Assembly: GCA_947469285.1 (NCBI GenBank)
Contig: CANIOW010000010.1
Coordinates: 37,189-101,188, forward strand
Length of the DNA: 64,000 nucleotides
Source of the DNA: Gammaproteobacteria bacterium
GTDB taxonomy: Bacteria > Pseudomonadota > Gammaproteobacteria > Steroidobacterales > Steroidobacteraceae
Direction of reading: 5' to 3'
The notes below the pieces were generated by a model. The model saw only the letters and a program-made list of their open reading frames with translations, did no database searches and was not told where the DNA came from. The translations under genes were made by a program, and so were the position numbers. This document shows positions 24,682 through 60,160 of the stretch, piece by piece (position 1 is the first letter of the stretch; each line of letters starts with the position of its first letter).

Positions 24682-24710
24682 CCCTGAGTATTTCCCCAGT
24701 GGAGCGCGCC

Positions 24711-25340
24711 ATGTCGGACCTTACCCCTCGCCAGCAACAGATCCTCGACTTCCTCCGCGAGCAGATTCAGGAAACTGGCATGCCGCCCACGCGTGCGGAA
24801 ATCGCCCGTGCCCTGGGCTTTAAGTCGGCCAATGCTGCGGAAGACCATCTACGTGCTCTACAGCGCAAGGGCGTGCTGGAGCTGGTGCCGGGCGCCTCGC
24901 GTGGCATTCAGCTGAAGGAAATGCTGCGCGAGCCGCCTCCGGGGTTGCCGCTCATCGGCCGTGTGGCCGCCGGCAGCCCCATTCTGGCAGAGCAAAATAT
25001 TGAGGCGCGTTACCAAGTCGACCCAGACCTGTTCCATCCCAAGCCACACTACCTGTTAAAAGTAGTTGGTATGTCCATGAAAGATATCGGTATTCTCGAC
25101 GGAGATCTGGTGGCTGTGCATCGCACACCGGAAGTGCGTAACCGCCAGGTGGTGGTAGCGCGCCTCGAGAATGAAGTGACGGTCAAGCGTTACCGCCAAG
25201 ACGGTGCCGTGGTGTGGTTGTTGCCGGAAAATCGCGACTTCGACCCCATCCGCGTGAACCTTGAAGAGCAGTCGCTCATTATCGAGGGGGTGGTGGTGGG
25301 CGTCTTGCGCTGCGGCCGCTCTATCGACCGGCTCCAATGA
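24711..25340 (+). CDS. lexA: SOS repressor LexA
   Basis: Transcriptional repressor of the SOS regulon, inactivated by RecA-stimulated self-cleavage. The 209-aa protein has an N-terminal winged helix-turn-helix ([25 protein letters not shown]), the Ala87-Gly88 cleavage site in GRVAAGSP, and catalytic Ser122 (GMSMKD) and Lys159 (EVTVKR). ATG 24711 fits the [14 protein letters not shown] start; four residues of upstream frame are discarded. It overlaps imuA by 4 bp (ATGA), making it the first gene of a mutagenesis operon. Confidence 0.96.
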
Positions 25341-26053
25341 GTGCAGGCGCTTCCCGATTTTCGGGGGCGCCACCGGCCGTTCGTACGCAAGCCCTGTCCA
25401 CATTGCTGGAACAGGCCTCCGGCGCGGTGTGGCGGGTAGGGCCGCAGGGAAGTGTGTCGGCCGCTTTTGGAGCGACCCATCTCCCCACCGGATTCCCCCG
25501 ACTCGACACCGTCCTGCCCGGGGGAGGCTGGCCGGTCGGTACCCTGATCGAAGTGCTGACAGCACGCGCTGGTGTGGGCGAAGTGTCCCTCTGGTTGCCG
25601 GCCCTACAGCACTGGTCGGTGGGTGTGTCCGCGGCGACCACCGTGCCGGCCCATTCCCGCTGGGTGGCCTGGGTTCGTCCGCCTTACGTGCCCTATGGGC
25701 CGGCTCTGGCTCAGGCCGGGCTGCGGGTAGAGCAGATGTTGTGGGTGGCCACGGAAGGGCCGGCAGAGGCGCTATGGGCTGCCGAGCAGGTGCTGCGGTC
25801 TGGTGCCTGTGCTGCCGCCTTTGTCTGGGCCCATCCAGCGGACGACCGCGCCTTGCGGCGCCTGAAACTAGCGGCGGCCCAGGGGCAGTCGCTCGGCGTG
25901 GTGTTCCGCCCCTTGGCGCAGGCAGCTGTTGCCTCACCCGCCAGCCTACGCTTGGTACTGCACCCACGTCCCGCAGGCGGCCTCGACATCGAAATGCTCA
26001 AATGTCAGGGGAGTTACCCGGGATGGGTGCGTGATGCGCTCCGCCACTGCTGA
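25337..26053 (+). CDS. imuA: Translesion synthesis-associated protein ImuA
   Basis: 238-aa RecA/SulA-like accessory factor of the ImuA-ImuB-DnaE2 mutasome. The N-terminal half contains [22 protein letters not shown], where a RecA core would have its P-loop; the GKT is not preserved, as is usual for ImuA. Position between lexA and imuB is diagnostic. The start overlaps the lexA stop and the end overlaps imuB by about 20 bp. Confidence 0.9.
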
Positions 26054-27746
26054 AGCGTTGTCAGCCAGTTCGCTCCTGCCGGCGCTTGAACCGCCAGCCA
26101 GTCCGCTCGCGCCAGCCATCGCCGATGGGCGCAATCTGTTTTGCGACACCCGGATGGCTGTGCCTCCTGTGCCCGCTGTGCGGGCGGCGGCACGTCATTT
26201 GTGGCTGGCGGTGCATCTGCCGCAGTTGGCGTTGGAATGCCTGCCGCGGCCATTGCCGGCAGCAGCGTCGCGGTCTACTCCGCTTCCACAAGTCGTGGTG
26301 TCCGGCGAGGGTGCGCAGTGCGAAGTGGTGGCGGTGGATACCGCAGCACTTGGCTTGGGGATACGCCAAGGTCATGGTCTGAACGCGGCATATGCGCTGT
26401 GCCCTTTACTGGAGGTACTGCCACGCGACCTGGATCGTGAGCTGCAAATGTTGCAAACGCTCGCCCGTCTGGCCACGCAGTACACGCCTTGGGTCAGCCT
26501 CGAGCCCCCCGACGGGCTCTTGCTCGAGGTGCGCGGCAGCCTACGCTTGCTCGGGGGGACGCGTGCCTTACTGGCCCGATGGCGTCAGGACCTGGCTCAG
26601 CAAGGCCTCACGGCCGCTCTGGCGCTCACCCCCACGCCTTGGTCAGCGTTATGGGCTGCGCGTGCGGCCACGCCGGGTGCTGCCGTCCGTGTGATCACGG
26701 AATGGGGAGCGCTGGCAGCTGCCTTGTCCGGGCTGCCACTGGCGGTCACCCGCTGGCCTGAAAGCCTGCGCGATCGGCTGGCGGAGGCCGGTGCGCGTCA
26801 GGTCGGGGATATCTTGCGTTTGCCGCGCGATGGTCTGGCGCGTCGTTATGGGCCTGCCATGGCACAGATGCTCGAACAGGCGCTGGGTCAACGGCCCACA
26901 CCGCGAGCGCGCACCGTGTTGCCGGAGCGCTTTGTTACTACCTTCGAGCTGGAAGCGGAAGCCACGGACGTGGCACATCTGCAGCCAGCGGTGGACCACG
27001 TGTTGCACGCATTGGAAACCTTTTTGCGTGTACGTACCGCAGGTGTGCATGGTGTGGTGCTGCAATTGCGTCATCGCCCTGGTCCGCAGGAATCGGTGAG
27101 CCCTGCGCTGACGACTCTTGCGCTGAGCCTCGTCGCTCCCGGTGCTTCTGCAATGCGTCTGGGGGCCTTGCTGCGTGAACGACTAGAACGGCTGGTGCTG
27201 GTGGCGCCGGTGCGTGCCCTACGGCTGCGCTCGGGTGTGGTGGTGCCACTGCCTGCCGCCACTGACGCAGTGCCTGGAACGAGCAACCTGACGGAGGTTG
27301 GGGCCGCAGCGGCCTTGCTCGATCGTCTGCGTGCCCGTCTTGGTGCGGGCGCGGTGCAAGGTGTGTGCCTGGTGCCTGAACATCGTCCGGAGGCTGCCTG
27401 GCGTCGCGCGGTGCCCACCGTGCGCGCCACGCCGTCTATGCGTGCTGCCAAGGCTAGCAACAGCAGACGGAGCAGTGGTATGGCACAGACCACGACGCCC
27501 ATGCGTCCATTGTGGCTGTTGCCTGTGCCAGAGCGTCTGCGTGTATGCCACGGGCAGCCGTGGCATGCAGGCCTGCTAACCGCTGAACAGGGTCCGGAGC
27601 GTATCGAAAGTGGCTGGTGGGATGGCGCTGAAGTGCAGCGCGACTACTACGTGGTGCGTCAGGAGGATGGGGTTCGGCTGTGGATTTTTCGCGAACGTGG
27701 CGAGGTGGCACCAGGGAGCTGGTGGCTGCATGGCGTGTTCGGTTGA
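26034..27746 (+). CDS. imuB: Y-family polymerase-like protein ImuB
   Basis: 570-aa Y-family homologue that acts as a hub linking DnaE2, ImuA and the beta clamp, not as a polymerase. The catalytic first motif reads LWLAVHLPQLALE, lacking the Asp of active Y-family enzymes, and LSGLPLAVTRWPESLRDRLAEAGARQVGDILRLPRDGLARRYG gives the helix-hairpin-helix-type region. The start is uncertain: ATG 26034 (overlapping imuA) leaves about 55 residues before the first motif; ATG 26154 would leave about 15. The C-terminus YYVVRQEDGVRLWIFRE is typical of ImuB. Confidence 0.88.
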   Translation: MRSATAEALSASSLLPALEPPASPLAPAIADGRNLFCDTRMAVPPVPAVRAAARHLWLAVHLPQLALECLPRPLPAAASRSTPLPQVVVSGEGAQCEVVAVDTAALGLGIRQGHGLNAAYALCPLLEVLPRDLDRELQMLQTLARLATQYTPWVSLEPPDGLLLEVRGSLRLLGGTRALLARWRQDLAQQGLTAALALTPTPWSALWAARAATPGAAVRVITEWGALAAALSGLPLAVTRWPESLRDRLAEAGARQVGDILRLPRDGLARRYGPAMAQMLEQALGQRPTPRARTVLPERFVTTFELEAEATDVAHLQPAVDHVLHALETFLRVRTAGVHGVVLQLRHRPGPQESVSPALTTLALSLVAPGASAMRLGALLRERLERLVLVAPVRALRLRSGVVVPLPAATDAVPGTSNLTEVGAAAALLDRLRARLGAGAVQGVCLVPEHRPEAAWRRAVPTVRATPSMRAAKASNSRRSSGMAQTTTPMRPLWLLPVPERLRVCHGQPWHAGLLTAEQGPERIESGWWDGAEVQRDYYVVRQEDGVRLWIFRERGEVAPGSWWLHGVFG

Positions 27747-27747
27747 C

Positions 27748-30700
27748 ATGCCCTACGCAGAGCTCCATGCACTGTCTAACTTTACTTTTTTGCGCGGCGC
27801 TTCACATCCGCACGAGTTGGTGAAACAGGCGCAGATGCTCGGCTACGCCGCACTGGCACTGACCGATGAATGCTCGGTCGCCGGAGTGGTACGAGCGCAC
27901 GCGGCGGCGAAGGACTGCAAGCTGCCTTTCATTGTTGGTACCGAATTGCGTTTCGTTGAAGGGTTGCGGTGCGTGTTGTTGGCTACCAGTCGTTGTGGTT
28001 ACGGCCAGTTGTCTCGTCTCATTACCGCTGCGCGGCGTGCGGCGGCTAAGGGTGGCTACCACCTCACCTTGCAAGATCTGGAACGCCCGCTCGAGGACTG
28101 TCTGTTGCTGTGGCTGCCGGGAACGCCCGGTGCCATGGAGGAGCCGGTAGAGCACGTCCCTTTCTTACGTGAACGATTTGAGGGCCGGTTGTGGCTGGCA
28201 GTGGAGCTGCTGGGTGGTGGCAATGATCGCCAGTTGGTACGGGAGCGGGTGGCATTTGCCAACCGCCATGGGCTGCCCAGTGTGGCCACGGGCGATGTGC
28301 ATATGCACTTGCCCTCGCGACGCGCTCTACAGGACACGCTTACGGCCATCCGTCTGCGCGTGCCGTTACAGGCCGCAGGCCATGCCTTGTATCCCAACGG
28401 TGAGCGCCACTTGCGGACTTTGGCGCGGCTGGAAAAACTCTACCCCACGCCCTTGCTGCGGGCCACGCTCGAAGTGGCGGAGCGGTGCCGTTTTTCACTC
28501 GATGAGCTGCGCTATGAGTATCCGGCGGAACTGGTGCCACCGGGGCAGAGCGCCACTGGCTGGTTGCGCCATCTGACGACGGAGGGTTTGCAGCACCGTT
28601 ATCCGCAGGGAGTACCTGCCAAGGTACAGACACAGGTCGAACACGAGCTGGGGCTCATTGAAGAGCTGCGTTACGAGCCGTATTTTTTGACGGTGCAAGA
28701 TCTGGTGGCCTTTGCCCGCAGTCGCGGCATCTTATGTCAGGGCCGTGGTTCTGCCGCTAACTCCGCCGTGTGCTATGCGCTGGGGGTAACCGAAGTTGAC
28801 CCGGCCCGTTTGCAGTTGCTGGTGGAACGTTTTATCTCGCGGGAGCGCAACGAACCGCCAGACATTGACATCGATTTTGAGCATGAGCGACGTGAAGAAG
28901 TGATCCAGTATCTGTATACGAAGTACGGTCGAGATCGTGCTGCATTGGCAGCTACGGTCATCACTTACCATCCACGCAGTGCGCTGCGAGATGTTGGTAA
29001 GGTCCTTGGTTTTGATGCTCTGCAGGTGGATCGTCTGGCGCGTTCTTTACGCTGGTGGGATGTCCGTGAAGCGGATGTCGCACCAGCGCATGATGAGAAT
29101 GCCGCGCGGCTGCGCGATGAGAATGCCGCGCGGCTGCGCGAGGCGGGCTTTGAGGCGACAAATCCGCAAGTACAACGTTTGCTGAGCTTGGTGGCGGCGC
29201 TGGAGGGGTTCCCGCGACATTTATCACAGCATGTTGGCGGCTTTGTGATAGCGCGGGGCCTGCTCGAGGAGCTGGTGCCGGTGGAAAATGCCAGCATGTC
29301 GGGGCGGACCGTTATCCAGTGGGACAAGGACGATCTCGACGAACTGGGTTTGTTGAAGGTGGATGTGCTCGCGCTCGGTATGCTCACGGCCATTCGGCGC
29401 GCGCTCGACTACCTAGGTGCTTGGGAAGGACGCACGCTGACGCTGGCGGAGGTGCCGGCAGAAGACCCGGCCACTTACGCCATGATCTGTCGTGCCGATA
29501 CGGTGGGTGTGTTCCAGATTGAATCCCGCGCCCAGATGGCGATGTTGCCGCGCTTGCGGCCGCGTCATTACTACGACCTGGTGATTCAGGTGGCCATTGT
29601 TCGGCCCGGTCCTATTCAGGGGGACATGGTGCATCCCTACCTGCGCCGCCGTAATGGCGAAGAGCCGGCGACTTATCCGAGCCGCGAAGTCAAAAGCGTG
29701 CTCGAACGGACGCTGGGTGTGCCGCTGTTTCAAGAACAGGTCATGCAGGTGGCGATTGTGGCCGCCGGATTCACGCCTGGCGAGGCGGACCAGCTACGGC
29801 GCGCGATGGCGGCCTGGAAACGGCGGGGGGGGCTGGGGCCCTTTGAGGCACGGTTGCTGGAAGGTATGCGCCTACGCGGCTATGCCCCCCATTTTGCCGC
29901 ACAGCTGTTCCGGCAAATTCGTGGCTTTGGAGACTATGGGTTTCCGGAGTCGCATGCAGCCAGCTTTGCCTTGCTGGTGTATGTCTCGGCGTGGCTGAAA
30001 TGCCATGCGCCGGCGGCGTTTCTGGCCGCGCTGCTCGACAGCCAACCGATGGGGTTTTATGCGCCAGCCCAATTGGTGCGTGATGCGCGTTCACATGGCG
30101 TTGAAGTGCGGGCGGTCAATGTCCAGCACAGTGGTCAGGGGTGTGTGTTGGAGCGTGCAGCGGACGGTCAGCCAGCGGTTCGCTTGGGTCTGGATCGCGT
30201 GGCCGGACTCGGTGTTGCCGCCGGACAGCGCGTTGTGGCCGCGCGCGCCGCCGGCGTGGCCTTCAGTAGCGTGCAGGAGTTGGCGGAACGGGCGCAACTG
30301 ACACGACGTGAACTTGGCGTCTTGGCTGCCGCCGGCGCACTCGAGGGGTTGGCGGGTCATCGCCATCGTGCGGCCTGGGAGGTGGCGGGTGTGGAAGATT
30401 CACTGCCGCTGTTTCCGGAGCTGCGCATCACGGAAGCTATTCCGTTACTGCGTGCGCCCACGGCGGGTGAAAATGTGGTGGCGGATTATCGTCAGCTTGG
30501 GTTGACGTTGGGCCCGCATCCGGTGGCCTTGCTGCGGTCCGGGCTGGCCGCGGTGGCAGTACATACCGCTGAAGAAGTATTGACGCTGGCACACGGCACG
30601 CGAGTGCGGGTCGCCGGTTTGGTGCTGGTGCGGCAGCGTCCAGGGACAGCCAGTGGAGTCACTTTCGTGACGCTAGAAGATGAAACGGGCGTGACGAACT

Positions 30701-30879
30701 TGGTGGTGTGGAAACGCATTGCGGAACGGGATCGTCGGGCACTACTGAATTCGCGTTTGTTATGGGCGGAAGGCGAAGTGCAACGCGAAGGCGATGTGGT
30801 GCACGTGGTGGCGCGTCGTCTGCGTGATGAATCGTTGCGCTTGGGTGAGCTGCTTGCCCGGTCACGCGATTTTCAATAA
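27748..30879 (+). CDS. dnaE2: Error-prone DNA polymerase DnaE2 (ImuC)
   Basis: Catalytic alpha subunit of the damage-induced mutasome, 1043 aa. It has an N-terminal PHP domain (YAELHALSNFTFLRGASHPHELV), the C-family palm with PDIDIDFEHERREEVIQYLY and VDVLALGMLTAI, a helix-hairpin-helix region (FGDYGFPESHAASFALLVY) and a C-terminal OB fold (FVTLEDETGVTNLVVW). ATG 27748 lies 1 bp after the imuB stop. Residues 449-464 contain a perfect 24-bp in-frame tandem duplication (DENAARLR twice), so the gene is likely intact but locally elongated. Confidence 0.95.
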   Translation: MPYAELHALSNFTFLRGASHPHELVKQAQMLGYAALALTDECSVAGVVRAHAAAKDCKLPFIVGTELRFVEGLRCVLLATSRCGYGQLSRLITAARRAAAKGGYHLTLQDLERPLEDCLLLWLPGTPGAMEEPVEHVPFLRERFEGRLWLAVELLGGGNDRQLVRERVAFANRHGLPSVATGDVHMHLPSRRALQDTLTAIRLRVPLQAAGHALYPNGERHLRTLARLEKLYPTPLLRATLEVAERCRFSLDELRYEYPAELVPPGQSATGWLRHLTTEGLQHRYPQGVPAKVQTQVEHELGLIEELRYEPYFLTVQDLVAFARSRGILCQGRGSAANSAVCYALGVTEVDPARLQLLVERFISRERNEPPDIDIDFEHERREEVIQYLYTKYGRDRAALAATVITYHPRSALRDVGKVLGFDALQVDRLARSLRWWDVREADVAPAHDENAARLRDENAARLREAGFEATNPQVQRLLSLVAALEGFPRHLSQHVGGFVIARGLLEELVPVENASMSGRTVIQWDKDDLDELGLLKVDVLALGMLTAIRRALDYLGAWEGRTLTLAEVPAEDPATYAMICRADTVGVFQIESRAQMAMLPRLRPRHYYDLVIQVAIVRPGPIQGDMVHPYLRRRNGEEPATYPSREVKSVLERTLGVPLFQEQVMQVAIVAAGFTPGEADQLRRAMAAWKRRGGLGPFEARLLEGMRLRGYAPHFAAQLFRQIRGFGDYGFPESHAASFALLVYVSAWLKCHAPAAFLAALLDSQPMGFYAPAQLVRDARSHGVEVRAVNVQHSGQGCVLERAADGQPAVRLGLDRVAGLGVAAGQRVVAARAAGVAFSSVQELAERAQLTRRELGVLAAAGALEGLAGHRHRAAWEVAGVEDSLPLFPELRITEAIPLLRAPTAGENVVADYRQLGLTLGPHPVALLRSGLAAVAVHTAEEVLTLAHGTRVRVAGLVLVRQRPGTASGVTFVTLEDETGVTNLVVWKRIAERDRRALLNSRLLWAEGEVQREGDVVHVVARRLRDESLRLGELLARSRDFQ
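29092..29139 (+). repeat. Perfect 24-bp tandem duplication inside dnaE2
   Basis: Two identical, directly adjacent 24-nt units, each starting GATGAGAATGCC and encoding Asp-Glu-Asn-Ala-Ala-Arg-Leu-Arg. The complete absence of differences suggests a recent slippage event or strong conservation. It preserves the reading frame. Confidence 0.97.
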
Positions 30880-31994: not shown

Positions 31995-33209
31995 TCAGCG
32001 GACGAGTGTGTTGAGTTCGAAGATCGGCAGCAGCAGCGCCAGGACGATGAACAGGACGAAACCACCCATGAACAGGATCATCACCGGACCGAGCACGCCA
32101 ACGGCGGTGGTGATGAGATCGTTCATCTCGCGTTCCTGATTCAGCGCGGCGCGCTCAAGCATGGTGCCCAGTTCGCCGCTGGTTTCGCCGCTGGCGATGA
32201 GATGCACCAGCATGGGCGGAAATAGTTTGCTGTGGCCCAAGGAGCGGGCAATGGGCGCGCCTTCACGGACACGTACGGCTGCTGCTGCCACGGCCTCGCG
32301 CATGGGCACGTTGGCCACAACTTCGCCAGCGATGCGCATGGCATCGAGCACGGGTACGGCGCTGGCGGTAAGCGTGGACAGGGTGCGTGAAAACCGCGCG
32401 GCATTGACGCCGCGCGCTACGCGGCCGATGAGCGGCAGGGTGAGCACCCAGCGATCGAATTGGCGGCGTGCCGTGGCTCCTTTGAGCCATTGACGGAAGG
32501 CCCAGGCACTGCCGACGATGCCGGCTCCCAGGGCCCACCAGTAGTCGCGCAAAAAATCGCTGAAGCCGATGAGGATGCGGGTGGGTAAGGGCAGGGTTTG
32601 GTGGCCGGTGCGGAAGACGTTGACGACCTCCGGGACCACCTTGAACATCAGCACGCTCACAATCACAAACGAGGCGCACATCAGGATGACCGGATAGACC
32701 ATCGCATTACGGACCTGTGATTCGGTGAGCTGGCGGCTTTCGGTGTATTCCGCAAGACGCTCGAGCACCGGATCCAAACGGCCGGATTGTTCGCCGGCCG
32801 CAATGGTGGCGCGGTAGATGTCCGGGAAGGCTTGTGGGAATGCGCCGAGCGCATCGGCCAGACTGCGTCCTTCCATCACCCGCGCACGCACGCCGGCCAT
32901 GATATTGCGTACTCGGGGTTTTTCGGTCTGCTGTGACACGGCGAGCAGTGCTTCCTCCAGCGGCAGACCCGCGCGTGCCAGCGTGGCCAGCTGGCGGGTC
33001 AGCAGTGCCAGGTCCGCCGCGGTGATGCCGCGACGCGTGGTGATGCCACCTTGGCGTGCGGCTTCCTTGCGTTCCACCTCGTGGACAGCGGTGGGTAACA
33101 GACCGCGTTCACGCAGCTGCTGTCGGACCTGACGTGCAGTGTCACCTTCCAGCACACCTTTCTGGGTGCGGCCAGCGGCATCGAGGGCTGAATATTCAAA
33201 TGCTGGCAT
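31995..33209 (-). CDS. gspF: Type II secretion system inner-membrane protein GspF
   Basis: Polytopic platform protein of the type II secretion machine. The 404-aa protein has two repeated GspF domains, opening with MPAFEYSALDAAGRTQKGVLEGD and including FPDIYRATIAAGEQSGRLDPVLERLAEY and its second-copy counterpart LVHLIASGETSGELGTMLERAA. Three TM segments are visible, the last at the C-terminus (VMILFMGGFVLFIVLALLLPIFELN). It follows gspE by 9 bp. gspG, which normally comes next, is missing. Confidence 0.95.
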   Translation of the reverse strand: MPAFEYSALDAAGRTQKGVLEGDTARQVRQQLRERGLLPTAVHEVERKEAARQGGITTRRGITAADLALLTRQLATLARAGLPLEEALLAVSQQTEKPRVRNIMAGVRARVMEGRSLADALGAFPQAFPDIYRATIAAGEQSGRLDPVLERLAEYTESRQLTESQVRNAMVYPVILMCASFVIVSVLMFKVVPEVVNVFRTGHQTLPLPTRILIGFSDFLRDYWWALGAGIVGSAWAFRQWLKGATARRQFDRWVLTLPLIGRVARGVNAARFSRTLSTLTASAVPVLDAMRIAGEVVANVPMREAVAAAAVRVREGAPIARSLGHSKLFPPMLVHLIASGETSGELGTMLERAALNQEREMNDLITTAVGVLGPVMILFMGGFVLFIVLALLLPIFELNTLVR

Positions 33210-33218
33210 TGGAGTGGG

Positions 33219-34718
33219 CTAGTCCTCGCGCGTGACGCGCAGGACTTCCTCGACGGTGGTAATACCGGCCAGTACTTTGTGTCGCCCATCGTCGCGGATG
33301 CCGCCGGTGAGCGTCCGTGCATGACGTTCCAGTTCCTGTTCACCGGCACCGTCATGAATGAGGGTACGCAGGTGTTCATCGACGAGCGTCAGCTCGTAGA
33401 TGCCAGTACGGCCCTTGTAACCGGCCTCAGCCCCCGGGTGGTAGAGCGTTACCGGACCACTGTCTGCCGGGACGTTGAGCAGGCGGCGTTCGTATTCACT
33501 GGCAATGTACGGCACCCGAGTAAGCGGATTGAGCGTGCGCACCAGGCGCTGGGCCACTACGCCGAGCAGGGTCGAGGACAGCAGGAACGGCTCCACACCC
33601 ATGTCGCGCAAGCGGGTGATGGCACCCACCGCCGTATTGGTGTGCAGGGTTGACAGCACCAGGTGTCCAGTCAGCGACGCCTGCACCGCAATTTGGGCGG
33701 TTTCCAGGTCACGGATTTCGCCGACCATCACCACGTCCGGATCTTGGCGGAGGATGGCGCGCAAGCCGCGGGCGAAGGTCATGTCGACTTTGGTGTTGAC
33801 CTGGGTCTGGCCAATGCCATCGATGTAATACTCGATGGGATCTTCAACGGTGAGGATGTTGCGTGAGTTGTCGTTGAGCTTCTCAAGCCCGGCATAGAGC
33901 GAGGTGGTTTTGCCGGAGCCCGTCGGGCCGGTCACCAAGATGATGCCGTAGGGCTTGTGTAGCAGTTCGTCGTATTGCGTGCGTGTAGCAGGGTGCATGC
34001 CCAGCGCGGTCAAGTCGAGGCGCCCCGCCTGCTTGTCGAGCAGTCGCAGCACCACCCGTTCACCATGGCCGGCCGGAATCGTGGAGACACGTACATCCAC
34101 CGGACGACCCGCGATGCGCAGGCTGATGCGGCCATCCTGCGGCAGGCGTTTTTCGGCAATGTCGAGCTTCGACATGACTTTGATGCGCGACACCACCAGT
34201 GGCGACAAGGCGCGGCGTGACACGAGCACCTCACGTAACACACCATCCACGCGAAACCGCACCACGAGCCGGTTTTCATACGGTTCGATGTGAATGTCTG
34301 AAGCGCCTTCTTTCACTGCCTGTGTGAGCACGGCGTTAATCAGCTTGATGATGGGCGCATCATCTTCGCTTTCCAGCAGGTCCGAAGGCTCCGGCAGTTC
34401 TTCGGCCAGCAGCGTCAGGTTGGTATCACCCTCCAGCCCTTCGGCGGCTTCCATAGCCGCTTCGGTGCCGGCTTCGTAGGCTTTTTGCAGTAACTCGTCG
34501 AAGGTCTCGGTGGGCACCCGTTCGATGCGTAGGCGCCGCCCTAGATGGCGGCGCACCTCGGCCAGACCGCGCGGGTCTGCGCCCTCGCGGCAAGTGACGA
34601 GAGCGTCTTCGCCGTCGAAGCCACGCACCAGTACCCCCTGCCGTTTGGCGAAGGCGAAGGACAGCCGTGCCTCTGGCGGTAAGCGCGGGGCAATGACGGT
34701 GTCGGGACTGGCGGCCAT
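33219..34718 (-). CDS. gspE: Type II secretion system ATPase GspE
   Basis: Cytoplasmic hexameric ATPase that powers pseudopilus assembly. The 499-aa protein has an N1E-like N-terminal domain, an NT2 domain ([23 protein letters not shown]), Walker A GPTGSGKT (264-271), Asp and His boxes, and Walker B (MVGEIRD). The C-terminal zinc module, normally two CxxC pairs, is absent: the equivalent positions read RTLNPLT (394-400) and [13 protein letters not shown] (427-439), with the second pair apparently deleted. The only Cys is residue 43. Core ATPase motifs look intact. Confidence 0.95.
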
Positions 34719-34726
34719 GGCTGTGC

Positions 34727-36886
34727 TCAGGTGCCGGGGGTGGCGGGCGTAGCACGGGTGGGGGCGACGCTGGGTATCGCGCCCACTGGCAGTTTGTCGC
34801 TGACTGACTCCTGCGTCGGCTCTTTAGCGGGTTCGCTCGCCGGGGTAGCCGATGGCGGAGCGACTGGCTGCGGCGCCGGACGCGGTGACAGGAACTCCAT
34901 TGCCGGCAGGGTGGGCTGACGCTCGCCCGGGAGCATGGGCGCGCGGCCGTTGCTGCGGCCGGACTGGATGCCGCGCAGGTAGTTATATTTCGTCTCCGTT
35001 TCCACGGCGACGGAATGCGCATCCAGCAGGATTTTCGGGCGAATAAATACCATCAGATTGGTTTTGGTCTTTTTGGCGTTGCGGGTGCGGAACAGTTCGC
35101 CAAGCAACGGCACACGGCCCAGGAACGGCACCCGCTGCTCGCCATCGGTGAGGCTGTCGGAGATCAGCCCGCCGAGCACAATCACTTCGCCGTCTTCCGC
35201 TAGCACACGGGTGCTGATGGTGCGTTTGTTGGTGATCAGGTCGACGGCGCTGGTGGCCGTGGCCGACAGACTGCTCGCTTCCTGCTCGATCTTCAGCACG
35301 ATAGTGTTGTCGTCGGTAATCTGGGGCGTAATCTTGAGGATGGTGCCCACTTCCTGCCGCTGGATGGTCTGGAACGGGTTGACCGACCCATTGCCGCTAC
35401 CGCTACCAGTGTTGGTGAACTGGCCGGTGATAAACGGCACTTCCTGCGCCACTTTGATCTGCGCTTCCTGGTTGTCGAGGGTGATGATAGATGGCGTGGA
35501 GATGATGTTGGTGTGCGCATCACCGCGGATGGCGCGCAGGATGGCAGCGAAGCTGGTGCCAGTATCACTGAGACGGCCAACGCCGAAGGTGACGCCGGTC
35601 GGCAGGGTGGTGATGGATGTCGGGTCCTTTACCGCACGATAGATGTCGCCGATGCTGGTGCCACCGATGGGTGAAACGAAACCGCCGGCGGCAAGCTGGT
35701 CCTTTGAGCCGTCGACCACCCAGTTCACACCGAGGTCCACATTCTTATCGCCGGACACTTCGACGATGATGGCTTCGACCAGCACCTGTGCACGACGGAT
35801 GTCGAGGCGATCCACCACGGACATCAGCGAACGCATGATTTTCGGTGGCGCCGTGATGACCAGTGCGTTGGTGTCAGGGTCAGCCCACAGGGTGGTGCTG
35901 TTTTCGTTGCGGGCCCCCCCACCGGCGCTGGCGCCACTACCGGCGGCAGCCTGCAGGCCATTGAGCTGCTCTTTGAGTTTGCCGGCAATCTTCTCGGCAT
36001 CGGAATAGCGCAGGTAACGCACCTGCGTGTCGCCGCCAGATTCCAGCGGGGTATCGAGGTGGGCAACGAGAGCTTTCAGACGCAATCGCGCGCCGCTTTC
36101 GCCGCTGATGAGCACGCTGTTGGTGCGCTCATCCGCCACCAGCTTGACGGTGCTGCCGCCTTCGCCGCCCTGCGGTTGCGCCGCCAGTGAATTGACGACG
36201 CGGACGACTTCCGCCGCGGAGGCGTGCTCTAGGCGGATGACATCGATGTCTTCATCGCCAGCCTGATCGATGCGCTTGATGATGCGCATCAGCCGGTTTA
36301 CGTTATTAGCGCGGTCCGAGATGATGAGCATGTTCGACGATGGATAGGCCGCCAAATGCCCGTACTGTGGGATGAGCGGCCGCAGGATGGGCACTAGCTG
36401 TGCGGCGCTGACATTGCGCACTTGCATGACTTGCGTGACGATCTCGTCGGAGGTGGCGCTGACTTTATCGGGGAGATCGTTTGCCGGCACTTGGCGGGCG
36501 TTGGCGTCGGGGATGATTTTCCACACCCGACCGGAAGGCACGGCAACGAAGCCGTGCACCTGCAGGATCGACAGGAACGCTTCGTAGAAAGCATCTGCGG
36601 ACATCGGCGTGGCTGAGAGCATCGTGACCTGCGCGCGTGCGCGCGGGTCGATAATGAAATTCTTGCCGGTGACCTGACTGACGGCCTCAACGATCTGGCC
36701 GAGGTCGGCATCTTTGTAGTTCGGCGTGATCATGGGACCCGCTGCACGCGACGCGGCCGCCGGGGCCTGCGCGAGTGCGATGGGCACGAGGCCGGGGCCG
36801 GCCCCGAACACTGGCAGCATGGCCAGCATCAGAGCGAGAACACGGGGGGTGAGGCGTGCGGGTAAGCCCGCGGGCACGGTCGTCAT
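34727..36886 (-). CDS. gspD: Type II secretion system secretin GspD
   Basis: Outer-membrane secretin channel, 719 aa. It has a signal peptide (hydrophobic [26 protein letters not shown]), an N0 domain ([35 protein letters not shown]), N1-N3 repeats ([35 protein letters not shown]), a Gly/Ser linker in N3, and the C-terminal secretin domain with EVPFITGQ and [15 protein letters not shown]. The tail is Pro/Ala-rich. The start overlaps the gspC stop by 4 bp. Confidence 0.96.
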
Positions 36887-40994: not shown

Positions 40995-41780
40995 TTAGCT
41001 GCGGGGCAGCCGGGGTGGCGCACGGGGCCGTTGCCAGGCGCGTGGTGCGGTTTCAAGGTGGCCTGGTGCAGCGCCGGTGAGTCGCGCTACGGCGTCTAAA
41101 AACACCGGACGGGATATTTCCAAGGCCCCGAGCGAGGCCAGATGGGGGGTACGAAACTGGCAGTCGATCAGCTCAATCCCGCGATCTTGGCATTCCGCCG
41201 CCAGCGTCAGCAGTGCGATCTTGGACGCATCGCGCGCGCTACTGAACATCGATTCGCCAAAAAATAGGCCACCCAGCGCCACGCCGTAAAGCCCGCCCAC
41301 GAGGCGCTCTCCCTGCCACACTTCGATGGCATGTGCATCACCGGCCTGGTGCAGAGCGACATAGGCTGCCGCCATCGCCGGCACAATCCAGGTGCCGCCC
41401 GCGACCTCGGTGTCGGCCGCCTCGGCCGCTTCCGCTGCCAGACCGGCCAGCGGACGGGGTGCGGCGCAGGCGGCAACCACGCCGGCGAAATCGACATCGA
41501 CGCTAACGAGATAGCCGCGGTTGCGTACCGATTGCCGCAGGCTGCGCGCAATGCGCAGCTTCCCGGGGTAGAACACGGTACGTGGGTCGGGCGACCACCA
41601 CAGGATGGGGTCGGTGTCGCTGAACCACGGGAAAATTCCCTGCCGGTAGGCATGGCGCAGCCAGTCCGGGGTGAGCGCGCCACCGGCGGCCACCAGACCG
41701 GCAGGCTCGTCCAATGCGCGGTGGGCGGGTGGCAGTGCGGTGGGCGGGGCGGCAGGCGGTAATAGCGGCACCCGTCGCAT
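40995..41780 (-). CDS. aat: Leucyl/phenylalanyl-tRNA--protein transferase Aat
   Basis: Adds Leu or Phe to proteins with N-terminal Arg/Lys, creating substrates for ClpS. The 261-aa protein has [79 protein letters not shown] and [16 protein letters not shown]. There is an insert of about 15 residues rich in Ala/Glu ([17 protein letters not shown]) before GTWIVPAM. It is adjacent to clpS-clpA-infA, giving a full adaptor-transferase-unfoldase set. The start overlaps the next upstream gene by 1 bp. Confidence 0.95.
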
Positions 41781-53872: not shown

Positions 53873-53962
53873 TGGCGGAAGGGGTGGGATTCGAACCCAC
53901 GGACGGGTTACCCCATCGTCGGTTTTCAAGACCGGTGCCTTAAACCGCTCGGCCACCCTTCC
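53873..53962 (-). tRNA. tRNA-Ser (anticodon TGA)
   Basis: 90-nt class II tRNA with CCA encoded (53873-53875). It reads GGAAGGG...CCTTCC in the acceptor stem, D-arm GGCCGAGCGG, anticodon loop CTTGAAA (TGA), a long variable arm with GGG-GTAA-CCC, and T-arm GTTCGAATC. The anticodon stem ACCGGT/ACCGA has a C-A mismatch at its top pair (27-43), unlike the C-G of E. coli. Otherwise canonical. Confidence 0.95.
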
Positions 53963-54149: not shown

Positions 54150-54204
54150 ATCCGCACTATGACGTATGTCCTTTGGTATCACACGCAGGTTTAAGGGGTC
54201 CGAC

Positions 54205-57200
54205 ATGAAGTCCGTTACGCTTCCCAAGAGCACCACCGCTGTCAGGAAAGCACTTTCAGTGCTGCTGGCGTTGGCTGGCAGCCTCATTTTCTTCGGCGCA
54301 GCCCACGCAGCACCGACGAAAGCGCCCGTCGTAGGCGAGATTGAGGGCTTCACCATCGACACGCCTACCGACCATTGGTCGGGCGGCACCGTGGTGGTGG
54401 GCAGCAAGATCATTATCCTCCCCCGCAACCTGTTGCTGGACCTGCCCGCCAACCGCCTCACCCTGTGGCAGTTGTACGACCAGGCTCCTCCAGCCTGTAA
54501 GGCCCTCGGCGAGACCGGCCTTGCCAAGAGTGACAAATGCAACCACAGTGGCTTTGGCGGCATTGCGAGTATCGCAGCCAACAAGACCAACGGCGGCAAT
54601 GTCATTGCCGGTGACGTGCTGCTCGTCAAGGGCGAGGAAGCGGTCATCGGTCGCGTTACCTACATTAACTACACCGACGGTTACCTCCGGGTGAACGGTG
54701 TGGTAGGCGATGCCACCAAGGGCCTGATGGCCCGCATGAACGACCCCACCTCGCGCCACACCGTGCAGCAGGGCCTGGGATGTTCGGTAGACAGCCTGCT
54801 GGTGAACTGCAGCGCCGACCCGCGCTTTGCTCTCGACGCCGACAACTACGTGAACGTGTCTACTACCGGCTTCCCGATGTGCCTCCCCAGCACGGTCAGC
54901 CGCACCTGGGCCGGCCTGCCGTCGCAGAGCACGGGCGCTAACAACTCGCCTGCCGTCGCTGGTGGCAGCACCGCTTCCGACGCCAATGGCGTAGGTGACG
55001 CGCTGTGCCCGTCCACGAACCGCGTCGCTACGGACCTCGCAGCGGACTCGCGCCGCTTCGCGCCCATCAAGGTGGGCGATGACATCGAGCTCGAGGGTAA
55101 CTTCGAGGACGTCGATGGCGTTCACTTCCTGTCGTTCCATACGTCGAAAACCATGGTCGCTTTGGGCACCAAGACGGCGCTGTCGCAGCCGGACTACCTG
55201 TTGCCTGAGGAAGTGTTCGTCGAGGCTCCGGCCTTCCAGAATTCGCGTGCACGCACGCTCATCATCGGTTTCTCTACCCTGCGCCCAGATATTCTGGTGA
55301 ACAGTATCCACTACGACCCGCAGACCAATACCAAACACGAAAAGCCGCTCGCCTCGACCGCGGGTTGCGACGCCGTAGCGGGAGCTGGCCAATGTGCCGG
55401 CACCGGTATCCTTGGGGCGCCGAACCAAGGCGCTGCCGGTGCCAATATCTTCCGCATTCGTTACGATGTGGACTTCGTCATCGGTGCCGACGCGCGCCTC
55501 GACCCGTGCAGCCAGCTCCGTGCGGACCCCCGCATGTGGCTAAAAGCGGCGAACGGCACCCCCATGCAGCCCTGCCCGGGTTGGGGTCTGACCGGTAAGG
55601 CGTCGCTCTACAACGCGCAGGCCATTGGTGAAAGTTTTGCGGTGCTCAGCCCCATCATGCACGAAGTGCAAATGCGCACCGGCCATTTGCTGGCAGCGAA
55701 CGCCGCAGGCATTACCCCCACCACGGTGGACGTCATGGGTCGGGCAGCCACTAACGGCCAGTACCTGTACCCCTTCGGCATCAACCTCGGCGGTATTGAA
55801 GTTGCCGACTTCCTGGAAATCAACATCGCCCTGTTGCAGGCACCGTATCCGTTCTCTGGCATTCCTTGGAACCTGGACCGTCGCCTGAGCCCCAATGGTT
55901 GTCTGGACGGGGTGTGCGAACCCACACCGCAGCCCTTAGAGCCGTTTCCGTTCGAGGACCAAGACCCCCGCACCCAGACGCTCGCCTTGGCAGCCGGTGG
56001 CGTAGGTCCCGGTGCGCTACCCAACGTGCTCTATGCCGACCCGACGTTTACGGCTTCTGCATTGTCCACCGTGCGCAACCGCGTGTTGTCCTATGTCACA
56101 CGTCTGCCGGACACGCTCCCAGAGCGGTTCGACTTCAATGGCAACAGTAGCGTGCTGGCCTGGCCGCCGACGGACCCGGTAGCCCAGGCGATCGTCGCCA
56201 CCCCGGCGCTGACCTTCTGCGCCTCCAACACGCTTGGCGGCTGCACCGTGAATTCCGGTGTGCTGTTCAGCGCGCCAACCGCGGTGGCTTCGGTGGCATC
56301 GCCGGTGTCGCTGAGCGCCGTAGGTACGGCACATACCGTGAATGCGGGCACGCAGGTCACGCTGTCGGCGGCTGGCAGTGTCGACACCAACGACCCGGTG
56401 CTGCCGCTGTCTTACGCCTGGTCGCAGGTCTCGGGCCCGGCGGTCGCACTGACTGGTGCGGCCACGGACGCGCCGACGTTCATCGCGCCTATTGCCGCGA
56501 CGGATTCGGTGCTGGTATTCAGTCTGACCGTGAGCAACGGTCAGGCGAACGCCACTGCAGAGGTGACGGTTAATGTCAACCAAGTGTCTGCGCCGACCGC
56601 AGTGGCCACCACCAGCACGGCCACGGTCAACGCCGGTAGCGCCATCAGCCTGTCGGCTGCTGGCAGCGTCGACACCAACTCCCCGGCGGTGTTGGGTCTG
56701 ACTTACCTGTGGACCAAGCTCAGCCCGGCTAGCCCGGCGGTGACTATCACCAACGCCACCCGCGCCACGCCGACCATCACGGCGCCAGGTGTGGCTACGG
56801 CCACGGTGTATACCTTCCAGGTGGCGGTCAGCAATGGCTATAAGACCAGCACGGCGACTGTCACGGTGACGGTGAACCCGTCGCCGCCCACGGTCACAGT
56901 GACGAACGCCACGGTGAATGGCCGTTCGTTCAGCACCGTGTCCGCTACGGCCACTGGAACACCTGGCACGACGCTCAGCTACAGCTGGGTGAAGCTCTCG
57001 GGCACAGCGGTGACCTTCACTGGTGGCACTACCCGCACCATCTCCTTCACGGCACCGGGCGTCCCGGGTCCGCTGGTGTTCACGGTCACGGTCACGGACA
57101 ACCTGGGTCTTTCGGCCTCGGCCAACGTCACCATCACGGTGGTGGCAGATGCGCTTCGTGCCCAGGCGTTCTACTACACCGGGCAGAAGAAGGTGACGGT

Positions 57201-57507
57201 GTGGATGAACTCCAATGCCACCGCGCTGGCTTCTCTAACGGCCAGCTTCCAGGATGGTGACAAGACGTGGACGCAGACCAAGACGGAAGGCCTCAACTTC
57301 TCCGGCTTGTTGGGTGCTTCCAGTAACTGCAACACCGGGCTGAGCTCACCGAACGTGACGAAGTGCGCCATTGTCTTGCTGGTCGGTACCTCGGCAGTGC
57401 CGACGGCCGGTACCGGCACGGCAGCAGCGCCGGTCGGCACCTGGGTGTCCATCACCTCGCCCGGTGGTGGTGGTGCGATCTCGGTGCCGATGGTCATCAA
57501 GCCGTAA
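54205..57507 (+). CDS. Large secreted protein with PKD/Ig-like repeats, unrecognised family (paralogue A)
   Basis: I do not recognise the main domain. The 1100-aa precursor has a Sec signal peptide (ending near AAHA, residue 35). A region of about 650 residues follows that is strongly similar to the next gene: GGTVVVG, LPRNLLLDLPANRLTLWQL, AGDVLL-KGEEAV, LMARMNDPTSRHT, LPEEVFVEAPAFQN, RIRYDVDFVIGA, HEVQMRTGHLLAA, GQYLYPFGINLGGIE and IPWNLDRRLSPNGC. Residues about 693-982 form three Ig/PKD-like repeats (first two with LSAAGSVDTN), then a short C-terminal domain. It probably acts outside the cell or at the surface. ATG 54205 follows AAGGGG; frame upstream adds 13 residues. Confidence 0.85.
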   Translation: MKSVTLPKSTTAVRKALSVLLALAGSLIFFGAAHAAPTKAPVVGEIEGFTIDTPTDHWSGGTVVVGSKIIILPRNLLLDLPANRLTLWQLYDQAPPACKALGETGLAKSDKCNHSGFGGIASIAANKTNGGNVIAGDVLLVKGEEAVIGRVTYINYTDGYLRVNGVVGDATKGLMARMNDPTSRHTVQQGLGCSVDSLLVNCSADPRFALDADNYVNVSTTGFPMCLPSTVSRTWAGLPSQSTGANNSPAVAGGSTASDANGVGDALCPSTNRVATDLAADSRRFAPIKVGDDIELEGNFEDVDGVHFLSFHTSKTMVALGTKTALSQPDYLLPEEVFVEAPAFQNSRARTLIIGFSTLRPDILVNSIHYDPQTNTKHEKPLASTAGCDAVAGAGQCAGTGILGAPNQGAAGANIFRIRYDVDFVIGADARLDPCSQLRADPRMWLKAANGTPMQPCPGWGLTGKASLYNAQAIGESFAVLSPIMHEVQMRTGHLLAANAAGITPTTVDVMGRAATNGQYLYPFGINLGGIEVADFLEINIALLQAPYPFSGIPWNLDRRLSPNGCLDGVCEPTPQPLEPFPFEDQDPRTQTLALAAGGVGPGALPNVLYADPTFTASALSTVRNRVLSYVTRLPDTLPERFDFNGNSSVLAWPPTDPVAQAIVATPALTFCASNTLGGCTVNSGVLFSAPTAVASVASPVSLSAVGTAHTVNAGTQVTLSAAGSVDTNDPVLPLSYAWSQVSGPAVALTGAATDAPTFIAPIAATDSVLVFSLTVSNGQANATAEVTVNVNQVSAPTAVATTSTATVNAGSAISLSAAGSVDTNSPAVLGLTYLWTKLSPASPAVTITNATRATPTITAPGVATATVYTFQVAVSNGYKTSTATVTVTVNPSPPTVTVTNATVNGRSFSTVSATATGTPGTTLSYSWVKLSGTAVTFTGGTTRTISFTAPGVPGPLVFTVTVTDNLGLSASANVTITVVADALRAQAFYYTGQKKVTVWMNSNATALASLTASFQDGDKTWTQTKTEGLNFSGLLGASSNCNTGLSSPNVTKCAIVLLVGTSAVPTAGTGTAAAPVGTWVSITSPGGGGAISVPMVIKP
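56281..57150 (+). repeat. Three tandem Ig/PKD-like modules in paralogue A
   Basis: Three protein modules of about 90-100 residues. The first two share VNAGT/S-x-x-x-LSAAGSVDTN, a LSYAWSQVSG or LTYLWTKLSP strand, and an ending -TVNVN/TVTVN. The third is more diverged (TTLSYSWVKLSGTAVTFTGGTTR). Such modules are usual spacers or carbohydrate/protein-binding domains in secreted proteins. Confidence 0.75.
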
Positions 57508-57518
57508 GGCAAGCGCTT

Positions 57519-57542
57519 GGCCGGTGGCAGGTGCCACCGGCC
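57519..57542 (+). terminator. Strong hairpin between the two secreted paralogues
   Basis: GGCCGGTGGC / GCCACCGGCC, a perfect 10-bp stem with an AGGT loop, 12 bp after the first stop codon. There is no T-tract directly after it (a TTTT occurs about 15 bases later). It may attenuate transcription or stabilise the 3' end of the upstream message, changing the ratio of the two proteins. Confidence 0.55.
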
Positions 57543-57586
57543 GTTCAGAATTCAGTTTTCAAACGCAGGTTTAAAGAGGTTTTCCC

Positions 57587-60160
57587 ATGAAGTCCTTAAC
57601 GCCAAGGAAGAGCGCGGTGACGGTCACTCAGGTCGCTGGCGCCTTAGCCGCCGCCCTAGTGGTCAGTCTGGCCGCCGGTCCCGTACAGGCCGCACCCGTT
57701 AAAGCACCGCTGTCCGGTGAGATCGAGCGCATTACGCTCAACAACCCCGCCGACTACTGGACCGGCGGCACCGTGGTGGTGGGCGGTCAGACCGTTATCC
57801 TGCCGCGGAATTTGCTGCTGGATCTGCCGGCCAACCGGCTCACGCTGTGGCAGTTGGTAGACCAGGCCCCCGAGCCGTGCAAATCGCGCGGTGAAACGGG
57901 CCTCGCCAAGGGTGACACTTGTAATCTGTCAGGCACCGGCGCCATCGCCAGCATTGCGGCCAACCGGACCAATGGCAACAACGTCATTGCCGGTGACGTC
58001 CTGATCGAGAAGGGCCGCGAGGCCGTGACCGGGGTGGTCACTTACATCAATTACGACCAGGGTTATCTGCGCATTGACGGCGTGCCGGGCAGCGACAGCG
58101 CGGGCCTGATGGCGCGCATGAACGACCCCACCTCGCGGCATACCATTCAGGTGGGCGCCGGCTGTGGAGCGGGCCCCAATTGCAGCCCAGACGATCGCTT
58201 TGGCCTCGACGCTGACAATTACACGAACACCACCCCGACCGGGTACCCCATGTGTCTTCCGAGCACCATCGCGCGGCCGTGGGCCGGCTTGCCGCAGCAA
58301 GACATTGCCACGGCGCTGGGGGGACTGTCGAGCGACCGCTCAGTGGCCGTAGCCGCTGGAACCGCACAGGCAGCGGCAGATGGCACGGGGGATGCCCTGT
58401 GTCCTTCGACCAACCGCACGGCAAACTTTACCGTAGCAGACTCGCGCCGCTTCGCCCCTATTTTGGTGGGCGATACCATTACGCTGGAAGGCAGCTTCGA
58501 AACTGTGGGGGGGGTGCGTTTCCTGTCGTTCCATACCTCAAGTACAGCACTGGCTTTGGCGACGCGGACGGCTGGAACACAACCCGACTACGTGCTGCCT
58601 GAAGAAGTGTTCGTGGAGGCCCCAGCCTTTCAGAACCTGCGCGCACGCACGCTGATTATTGGTTTCTCTACGCTGTTCCCAGACATTCTGGTGCACACGC
58701 TGCACTACGATCCCATCACCGGCACCAAGCACGAGAAGCCTTTTGCCACCACCCGCGGCTGTGACAACGCGACAGCGGCCAATAACTGTGCGGGCGTGGG
58801 CATCCTGGGTACTCCCAACACCGGGCCGGCCGGTGGCAACGTCTTCCGCATTCGCTACGACATTGACTTCGTCATTGGCGCGCTGGCCGACTTAGACCCT
58901 TGTGCGCAGCTCCGTGCGGACCCGCGCATGGGTTCCGGTTTCTGCCCAAACTGGGTGTCTACCGGTAAGCCGGCGCTGTACAGTGCCAATGCCGTGGCCG
59001 AGATGTTCGCCATCCTCAGCCCCATCCCGCACGAAGTGCAGATGCGTACCGGCCATTTGCTGGCCGCCCAAGCCAAGAACTTCACGCCGACCACGGTAGA
59101 CGTGAATGGTCAGCCGGCCACCAATGGCCAGTACCTGTACCCGTTTGGCATCAATCTGGGCGGGATTGAAACGGCGGACTTCCTGGAGATTAATGCGGCG
59201 GCCCTCGGCAAACCGTTTCCGTTCTCCGGCATCCCCTGGAACTTGGACCGTCGCCTGAGCCCCAACGGCTGTAAGAAGGACGCAGGCGGCACACCGGTGT
59301 GCGAAGGCGCACCGCAGCCGCTCGAGCCGTTCCCCTACGAGGGCCTGGACCCGCGGACGCAAACGGACACCTGTGGTGCGGCTCCCTGCGCGCTGCCCAC
59401 CGTGCCCTATAACGACTCGAAATTCACGGCGTTGCCGCTGAGCACGGTGCGGAACCGCGTGTTGTCCTACATGACGCGCATTGGCACCACCACGCCGGCC
59501 GTGTACGACTTCGCCGGCAATGCCAGCGTGTTGGCCTGGCCACCGACGGACCCCGCGGCGATCGCGGTAGATGTCACGCCGACCGTGGACTACTGCGTCT
59601 CGGAGCTGGGCAACTGCTTGCCGCCACGGGTGGCGCCAGTGTGTGGCGCCGGTGAGGTGCCACTGAATGGTGCTTGTGTGGTGCCGGTGCCGGACTGCAC
59701 GGCCGGTCAGGTGCTGCAGAACAATGTCTGCGTGACACCGGTGCTGGCTTGCGGCACGGGTCAAGTGGCTTCGGGTGGCTTCTGTGTGGCACAGGTACTG
59801 ACGGTACCCACCTGCACGGCTACTCAGGCGCTGCAGAACAACGTCTGTGTCACCAAGGACATCGTCACTATTCCCCTCGTCACTTGGGTGGCGGCGGGTG
59901 GTGGACGTGGTCTGACGGTGGTGGCCAAGAGCAACAATGCGGCGGCTAACCTGGTGGTGACTGCAGCGGCTGGGACGACGAACGTGCTGAGCAGTCGGGC
60001 TTTAACCCGCGTGACCACCAACCAAGGGACGGTAGTGTGCACCACGGCCGCTCCTTGCTGGACGTTGGCGCGGACCCGGACGGTGTTGGATACGAAACCC
60101 ACCTCGGTGGTGGTCACGTCCGACAAGCTGGGGACGGCGACGGCCACCTCAGGCTTCTAA
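57587..60160 (+). CDS. Large secreted protein with paired-cysteine repeats, unrecognised family (paralogue B)
   Basis: 857-aa precursor, paralogous to the preceding gene over signal peptide (35 residues, ending PVQA) and about 640 residues; shared blocks include LPRNLLLDLPANRLTLWQL, NVIAGDVL, GLMARMNDPTSRHT, LPEEVFVEAPAFQN, RTLIIGFSTL, HEVQMRTGHLLAA and YPFGINLGGIE. Instead of PKD-like repeats it carries four modules of the type Cys-x9-Cys-Val (residues about 686-754), then a C-terminal beta-rich domain of about 100 residues. No enzyme motif was recognised. It begins at ATG 57587, 79 bp after the first gene, behind a leader sharing ACGCAGGTTTAA. A rho-independent terminator follows. Confidence 0.85.
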   Translation: MKSLTPRKSAVTVTQVAGALAAALVVSLAAGPVQAAPVKAPLSGEIERITLNNPADYWTGGTVVVGGQTVILPRNLLLDLPANRLTLWQLVDQAPEPCKSRGETGLAKGDTCNLSGTGAIASIAANRTNGNNVIAGDVLIEKGREAVTGVVTYINYDQGYLRIDGVPGSDSAGLMARMNDPTSRHTIQVGAGCGAGPNCSPDDRFGLDADNYTNTTPTGYPMCLPSTIARPWAGLPQQDIATALGGLSSDRSVAVAAGTAQAAADGTGDALCPSTNRTANFTVADSRRFAPILVGDTITLEGSFETVGGVRFLSFHTSSTALALATRTAGTQPDYVLPEEVFVEAPAFQNLRARTLIIGFSTLFPDILVHTLHYDPITGTKHEKPFATTRGCDNATAANNCAGVGILGTPNTGPAGGNVFRIRYDIDFVIGALADLDPCAQLRADPRMGSGFCPNWVSTGKPALYSANAVAEMFAILSPIPHEVQMRTGHLLAAQAKNFTPTTVDVNGQPATNGQYLYPFGINLGGIETADFLEINAAALGKPFPFSGIPWNLDRRLSPNGCKKDAGGTPVCEGAPQPLEPFPYEGLDPRTQTDTCGAAPCALPTVPYNDSKFTALPLSTVRNRVLSYMTRIGTTTPAVYDFAGNASVLAWPPTDPAAIAVDVTPTVDYCVSELGNCLPPRVAPVCGAGEVPLNGACVVPVPDCTAGQVLQNNVCVTPVLACGTGQVASGGFCVAQVLTVPTCTATQALQNNVCVTKDIVTIPLVTWVAAGGGRGLTVVAKSNNAAANLVVTAAAGTTNVLSSRALTRVTTNQGTVVCTTAAPCWTLARTRTVLDTKPTSVVVTSDKLGTATATSGF
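59642..59848 (+). repeat. Four paired-cysteine modules in paralogue B
   Basis: Repeating units CGAGEVPLNGACV, CTAGQVLQNNVCV, CGTGQVASGGFCV and CTATQALQNNVCV, each about 14 residues and separated by 9-12 residues of Val/Pro-rich linker. Units 2 and 4 are nearly identical in DNA as well (CAGG-GCTGCAGAACAA-GTCTG). They look like small disulfide loops of an extracellular stalk. Confidence 0.8.

Follow-up and report, generated by a model that had tools for sequence, protein, structure and literature searches.

Two large genes lie side by side in a 64,000-nucleotide stretch of a Steroidobacteraceae genome (the window). What do their products, predicted to be secreted, do? The original prediction, made from the DNA letters, held that the genes are tandem paralogues. 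Both open reading frames are present. Briefly, gene 1 (54205..57507, + strand) encodes a protein of 1100 amino acids with a signal peptide, a family core and a PKD-type tail. Gene 2 (57587..60160, + strand) encodes 857 amino acids: a signal peptide, the family core, a Cys-rich linker and an Ig-like end domain. BLASTP returned a single alignment, starting at residue 1 of each protein, with 449 of 692 residues identical (65%). All five blocks that had been quoted, among them YPFGINLGGIE, are identical in the two proteins. Across 662 aligned codons, the genes agree at 76% of first, 79% of second and 51% of third positions. Because first and second positions agree more than third positions, the likeness is held at the protein level, far beyond chance. 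The GC content of both genes is 0.64, compared to 0.635 for the window and 0.61-0.66 for six measured neighbouring genes. Hence, composition gives no mark of recent acquisition.

The N-terminal 35-residue segments (54205..54309 in gene 1 and 57587..57691 in gene 2, both + strand) end with AHA or VQA, after which comes APTKAPVVGEIE or APVKAPLSGEIE. On inspection of the translations by eye, these segments are predicted to be Sec signal peptides, as anticipated. In the open reading frame list gene 1 starts at 54166, which is 13 codons 5' of 54205. We favour 54205, since this position is supported by the start of the paralogue and by a shared leader. The leader element before gene 1 (54183..54198, + strand) resembles that before gene 2 (57563..57579, + strand) and those of congeners. 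An inverted repeat, identified by eye at 57519..57542 (+ strand) in the 79-base intergenic gap, has no T run and does not appear in the terminator-scan list. It is a possible attenuator. A tRNA-Ser(tga) gene (53873-53962, - strand) lies approximately 240 bases 5' of gene 1 and is a possible insertion landmark.

The region common to both proteins had been thought to match no recognised family. This core occupies 54310..56217 (+ strand) in gene 1, approximately residues 36-671, and 57692..59581 (+ strand) in gene 2, residues 36-665. Consistent with the prediction, no Pfam or NCBIfam model matched the core of about 650 residues. The core of protein 2, modelled alone, gave a pLDDT of 91.3 and a pTM of 0.90. 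Compared with the PDB, this model had no significant fold match, and the fold comparison indicated no function. The model suggests an OB-like barrel near the start of the core. A relation to DUF5666 was considered, and we do not claim one. One UniRef homologue bears the name; in nine proteins including that homologue, Pfam at E values up to 10 returned no DUF5666.

Proteins with this core are widespread and unnamed, with 561 homologues among the candidates scored. A second branch was traced from Paraburkholderia plasmid proteins (29% identity to the window core over 46% of the query). Further proteins of this branch, reached via a Nitrosomonas-family genome and a Roseomonas plasmid, are mostly of about 500 residues. 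No Pfam domain was found among the 120 listed of 226 second-branch homologues. Profiles of the two branches align with a probability of 99.9 over 325 columns and, on this comparison, the branches are one family. Motifs kept across both are N-D-P, D-x-R-F-x-x-D-x-x-N, T-G-x-P-x-C and C-P-x-x-N-R. In protein 2 numbering, residues identical in 31 of 31 alignment rows include N179, D180, D202, R204, D208, N211, T218, G219, P221 and C223, together with C272, N276 and R277, among others. Both window proteins show similarity over the length of the core and carry the blocks common to both branches. The conserved acidic and amide blocks could constitute a binding site. No relative of the family was found in the viral contigs searched. 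We also found no description of it in the literature searched, which does not prove that none exists; the accessible part of PMC13386937 contains nothing on the family.

The C-terminal regions are a different matter. In protein 1 the tail (56266..57504, + strand, residues 688-1100) matches the Pfam K319L-like PKD model in three stretches (E 2.5e-32). Many homologue tails are similarly like known K319L-like PKD and bacterial Ig/FN3 tail proteins, and PKD, Ig, FN3 and dockerin-like types all occur. The likeness to such proteins is confined to the tail, whereas the core is missed by Pfam and NCBIfam. Protein 2 has a linker defined by its cysteine positions (59594..59848, + strand, residues 670-754) and then a C-terminal Ig-like beta-sandwich (59852..60157, + strand, residues 756-857). 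The suggestion of an ancestral duplication followed by module swapping was upheld on both counts. Copies 1 and 2 form two sister clades with 100/99 support each. All seven copy-1 homologues tested have the PKD tail, and the Cys tail is found in nine of nine tested copy-2 homologues. A related Cys-type tail, 36-50% identical, links copy 2 with the outgroup homologues (5/5). Since the outgroups and copy 2 have the Cys-type tail, the simplest interpretation is that copy 1 replaced its tail after one duplication predating these genomes.

We surveyed genomes for the pair, and it recurs in tandem in congeners. Three of the four genus genomes carry it: that of the window (G000), G001 and G003. Contigs of G001 and G003 break inside the genes, yet two adjoining family genes are evident in each. 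Of the 396 genomes in the sample of the order, the other 393, including G002, gave no match. The class sample, of 368 others, yielded matches in G483 and G716. G716 was also matched among 397 others in the phylum sample, which partly overlaps. A further match in that sample, in G1111 (E 4e-4), we attribute to chance, since neither of the two family HMMs gave a hit there at E values up to 10 and no multicopper oxidase (MCO) motif is near. With a second-branch query, 2 of 296 genomes of the order were matched, both of the window's genus, as were 3 of 91 in the family of G716.

Which genes accompany the family elsewhere? We opened eight loci outside the genus (L003, L004, L028, L048, L049, L060, L066 and L067). 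Two further Paraburkholderia records, near-identical to L028, were left out of the count. At all eight loci, an MCO gene lies 31-4,699 bases from the family gene. This link was not selected for, because the loci were found by searches with family proteins and not with MCOs. Judged by the MCO counts, chance would put an MCO this close with a probability of 0.8-4.7% at a given locus, with a product of approximately 10^-11.5 excluding G1197; the estimate is rough, as PF07731 gives too low a count for MnxG types (to correct for this, one was added for G716 and G1197) and the loci are not fully independent. A SCO1 copper chaperone is encoded at six of the eight loci, identified by Pfam at four and by homology to those for L028 and G716. 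A gene for a c-type haem protein or cytochrome occurs at five. At L003 and L004 we noticed no gene for SCO1 or for a haem protein, and L003 has almost no upstream flank. A di-haem MauG-like gene adjoining the family gene was identified at two of the eight (L028 and G483).

The arrangements differ between loci. The Sideroxyarcus locus (L003) has the family gene and then the MCO; after these (L003:6874-10849) the translations read as a PAS-type sensor kinase and a response regulator. In Desulfuromonadales (L004) the order is MCO, family gene and another secreted protein. The Paraburkholderia locus (L028) consists of a family gene, a CCP_MauG di-haem protein, a second family gene, an MCO, a small protein, a SCO1-cytochrome and a DUF5666 protein. 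G483 encodes CCP_MauG, the family protein, an MCO and a SCO1-cytochrome. G1208 has MCO, SCO1 and family genes. Here (L067:9488-18081) the SCO1-MCO pair is repeated: a secreted FN3 protein is encoded between two MCO frames of 658 residues each, which have the same ends. Finally, G716, G1197 and a Roseomonas gilardii plasmid encode an MnxG-type MCO (2058-2163 residues), a short and a longer frame, SCO1, cytochrome c and the family protein. In G716 and on the Roseomonas plasmid the family gene is of the second branch. Two of the MnxG-type assignments come from PDB matches, 9bxa MnxG being best for both G716 (E 1.2e-101) and the Roseomonas plasmid (E 2e-85). The third, in G1197, comes from synteny and the copper motif. 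Pfam Cu-oxidase_2 was below cut-off in both MnxG-type proteins scanned. We found no MnxG-type gene in G483 or in the genomes of L003 and L004.

Tails are also shared between family proteins and their neighbours. At L003, the tails of the family protein and the MCO are 49% identical over 98 amino acids. At L004, the family protein and the product of the next gene are 94.5% identical over 200 amino acids. In G483, the family protein tail is 69% identical over 98 amino acids to that of the di-haem peroxidase and 42% identical over 60 amino acids to that of the MCO. Pfam places thrombospondin-3 repeats in both the G483 peroxidase and family protein, and a dockerin in the peroxidase; the dockerin match of the family protein is just below cut-off. 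From these common tails, we infer that enzyme and partner are likely to go to the same place. A search of the window's own genome with the protein 1 tail found only that tail itself, so no tail sharing with partners was found there by this tail.

The loci with MnxG-type MCOs resemble a known system. In the accessible part of its description, the mnxG operon of Pseudomonas putida GB-1 runs mnxG, YVTN propeller, SCO1, SCO1 and cytochrome c/substrate-binding, with a SurA-domain gene last (PMC11409713). A comparable order of MnxG-type MCO, longer frame, SCO1 and cytochrome c protein is found in G716, G1197 and the Roseomonas plasmid. In G716 the longer frame is a YNCE-like propeller, and the cytochrome c protein has a periplasmic-binding domain. 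The last gene differs: it is the family gene at these three loci and, as far as this source describes it, the SurA-domain gene in the P. putida operon (PMC11409713). The OmpB/MofA clusters and the three-MCO cluster of Sideroxydans lithotrophicus ES-1 are alike in combining genes for an extracellular MCO, SCO1 and cytochrome c, and have been proposed to act on Fe or Mn; the available portions of their descriptions do not mention the family protein (PMC5566968; PMC12016527). According to the parts of the literature at hand, clusters of the MnxG and OmpB/MofA types are tied to Mn and Fe (PMC5566968, PMC11409713, PMC12016527, PMC8218464). For this reason, a partner role in metal oxidation is the most likely one for the family.

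The window pair departs from the mnxG operon in having no adjoining MCO. No MCO gene was found beside the pair in the window or in congener contigs; in the window's own genome the downstream sequence ends after 3.8 kb, so distant linkage is possible. The sole MCO motif match in the window (41210-41779, - strand) is in a frame overlapping a Leu/Phe-transferase gene, and we took it to be chance. With no MCO gene alongside, we do not file the pair as an MnxG/MofA/OmpB-type cluster. Other contigs of G000 carry MCO, SCO1 and CCP_MauG genes and a PrsT-like TPR gene, the last below cut-off. In alignments of 569-727 amino acids, the G000 MCOs are 35-36% identical to the G1208 MCO and 31-34% identical to the L028 MCO. 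The G000 di-haem peroxidase is 36% identical to the L028 di-haem protein over 731 amino acids. Searching G000-G003 with the first 1400 amino acids of the G716 MnxG revealed no MnxG-type gene; MCOs of another type are present. Hence, any metal link for the window pair runs via a different MCO type. G002 (99% complete, 310 contigs) has MCO and SCO1 and no match to the pair. Since both are kept there, MCO and SCO1 do not require the pair in that genome.

The interpretation that we hold, with roughly even confidence, is that the pair are probably partner or scaffold proteins outside the cell, where copper oxidases would drive the oxidation of metals, for example Mn(II) or Fe(II). The link is genomic. 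For the window pair the metal assignment is two inferences away, since the pair is apart from the oxidase genes and the MCOs of the genome are not MnxG-type. MCOs oxidise many substrates. The pair could instead serve extracellular oxidation of organic polymers or phenolics, with a laccase-type MCO, a MauG/RoxA-like di-haem enzyme and a core that binds polymer. The MCOs that are not MnxG-type have bilirubin oxidase, CueO and phenoxazinone-synthase-type models as their nearest matches, and the di-haem proteins have a RoxA-like cytochrome match, which is weak and below the curated cut-off. We nevertheless consider a role with polymers unlikely, given MnxG-type MCOs at three loci and the Fe or Mn link of other extracellular MCO-SCO1-cytochrome clusters in the available parts of their descriptions (PMC5566968, PMC12016527, PMC11409713).

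The remaining alternatives concern the proteins themselves. If the oxidase link had been lost in this genus, the window pair might act on their own, as surface adhesins or matrix proteins. This would fit the PKD and Ig-type tails, and also the flanking sequence available for the three genus genomes with the pair, where no MCO was found. PF00395, which we take to be SLH, is present in 2 of the 120 homologues listed; the window proteins have no Pfam SLH match at E values up to 1. Conversely, an MCO lies close by at all eight loci opened outside the genus, and a core with approximately 100 invariant columns in 33 rows is, in our judgement, unusual for a plain adhesin. An adhesin role is less probable again than one with polymers. 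MbnP/MopE-type proteins have a copper site with an oxidised tryptophan made by a di-haem enzyme. By analogy, the family protein might itself be what the oxidase or di-haem enzyme acts on, for instance by being oxidised or cross-linked into a copper site or matrix. As with MbnH/MbnP and MopE/CorA, a MauG-like di-haem enzyme is encoded next to a secreted protein at two family loci (L028 and G483), and di-haem genes exist in G000, where one product has a weak MbnH-family match below cut-off. All 31 alignment rows have Y335 and Y516. However, such a di-haem gene was identified at just two of eight loci, and in the 31-row alignment the two branches have no conserved tryptophan in common. The family proteins also differ from those copper proteins in size and in the presence of an MCO. 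We regard this last alternative as the least probable of those considered.

How might a partner or scaffold for metal-oxidising copper oxidases work? Sec export would be followed by release or surface display, likely via a type II system. The conserved acidic and amide blocks of the Cys-rich core may then bind metal, polymer or oxidase. Tails would place the protein, and the same tail on an oxidase or di-haem peroxidase elsewhere would give both the same destination. By comparison with MnxG/MofA/OmpB-type clusters, a SCO1-loaded copper oxidase would oxidise the substrate, with O2 or a co-encoded cytochrome receiving the electrons. In the window's genus, as far as the short contigs show, duplication gave two copies, the first of which exchanged its tail, and both lie away from the oxidase genes.

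The locus had also been put forward as a candidate undescribed system. The family is indeed unnamed. Because relatives outside the genus are tied to MCOs, the family is better described as a component of a known kind of system than as a new one standing alone. Copper oxidases that act on Mn(II) or Fe(II) outside the cell shape minerals and element cycles, but accessory proteins for them are little known. The family described here, predicted to be secreted, is large, conserved and without annotation; it accompanies such oxidases in both Pseudomonadota and Desulfuromonadales, and some members have the tail of the enzyme. More tentatively, the family could be an unrecognised kind of component of extracellular copper-oxidase metal oxidation, besides the oxidase and the electron carrier. 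It would provide a secreted core serving both MnxG- and laccase-type oxidases, with swappable tails common to the enzymes and, in this genus, a free-standing diversified pair shaping where metal oxide forms. As a concrete target, the family may help to show how the oxidase is positioned and at what site the oxide forms. It is also a lead on hundreds of proteins now named hypothetical or Ig-like.

For export, the window contains the type II secretion genes gspF, gspE and gspD (31995..36886, - strand), which may provide the route. Type II export of the pair is plausible. Its best support comes from the Paraburkholderia locus, where a type II secretion-like set (GspF, GspE, pseudopilins and GspG; L028:521-10211) lies just upstream and is perhaps dedicated to that locus. 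Elsewhere in the window, genes for LexA, an unassigned frame, an ImuB-like polymerase (IMS domain) and a second-type DNA polymerase III alpha subunit (24699-30879, + strand) form what we take to be an ordinary SOS mutagenesis cassette.
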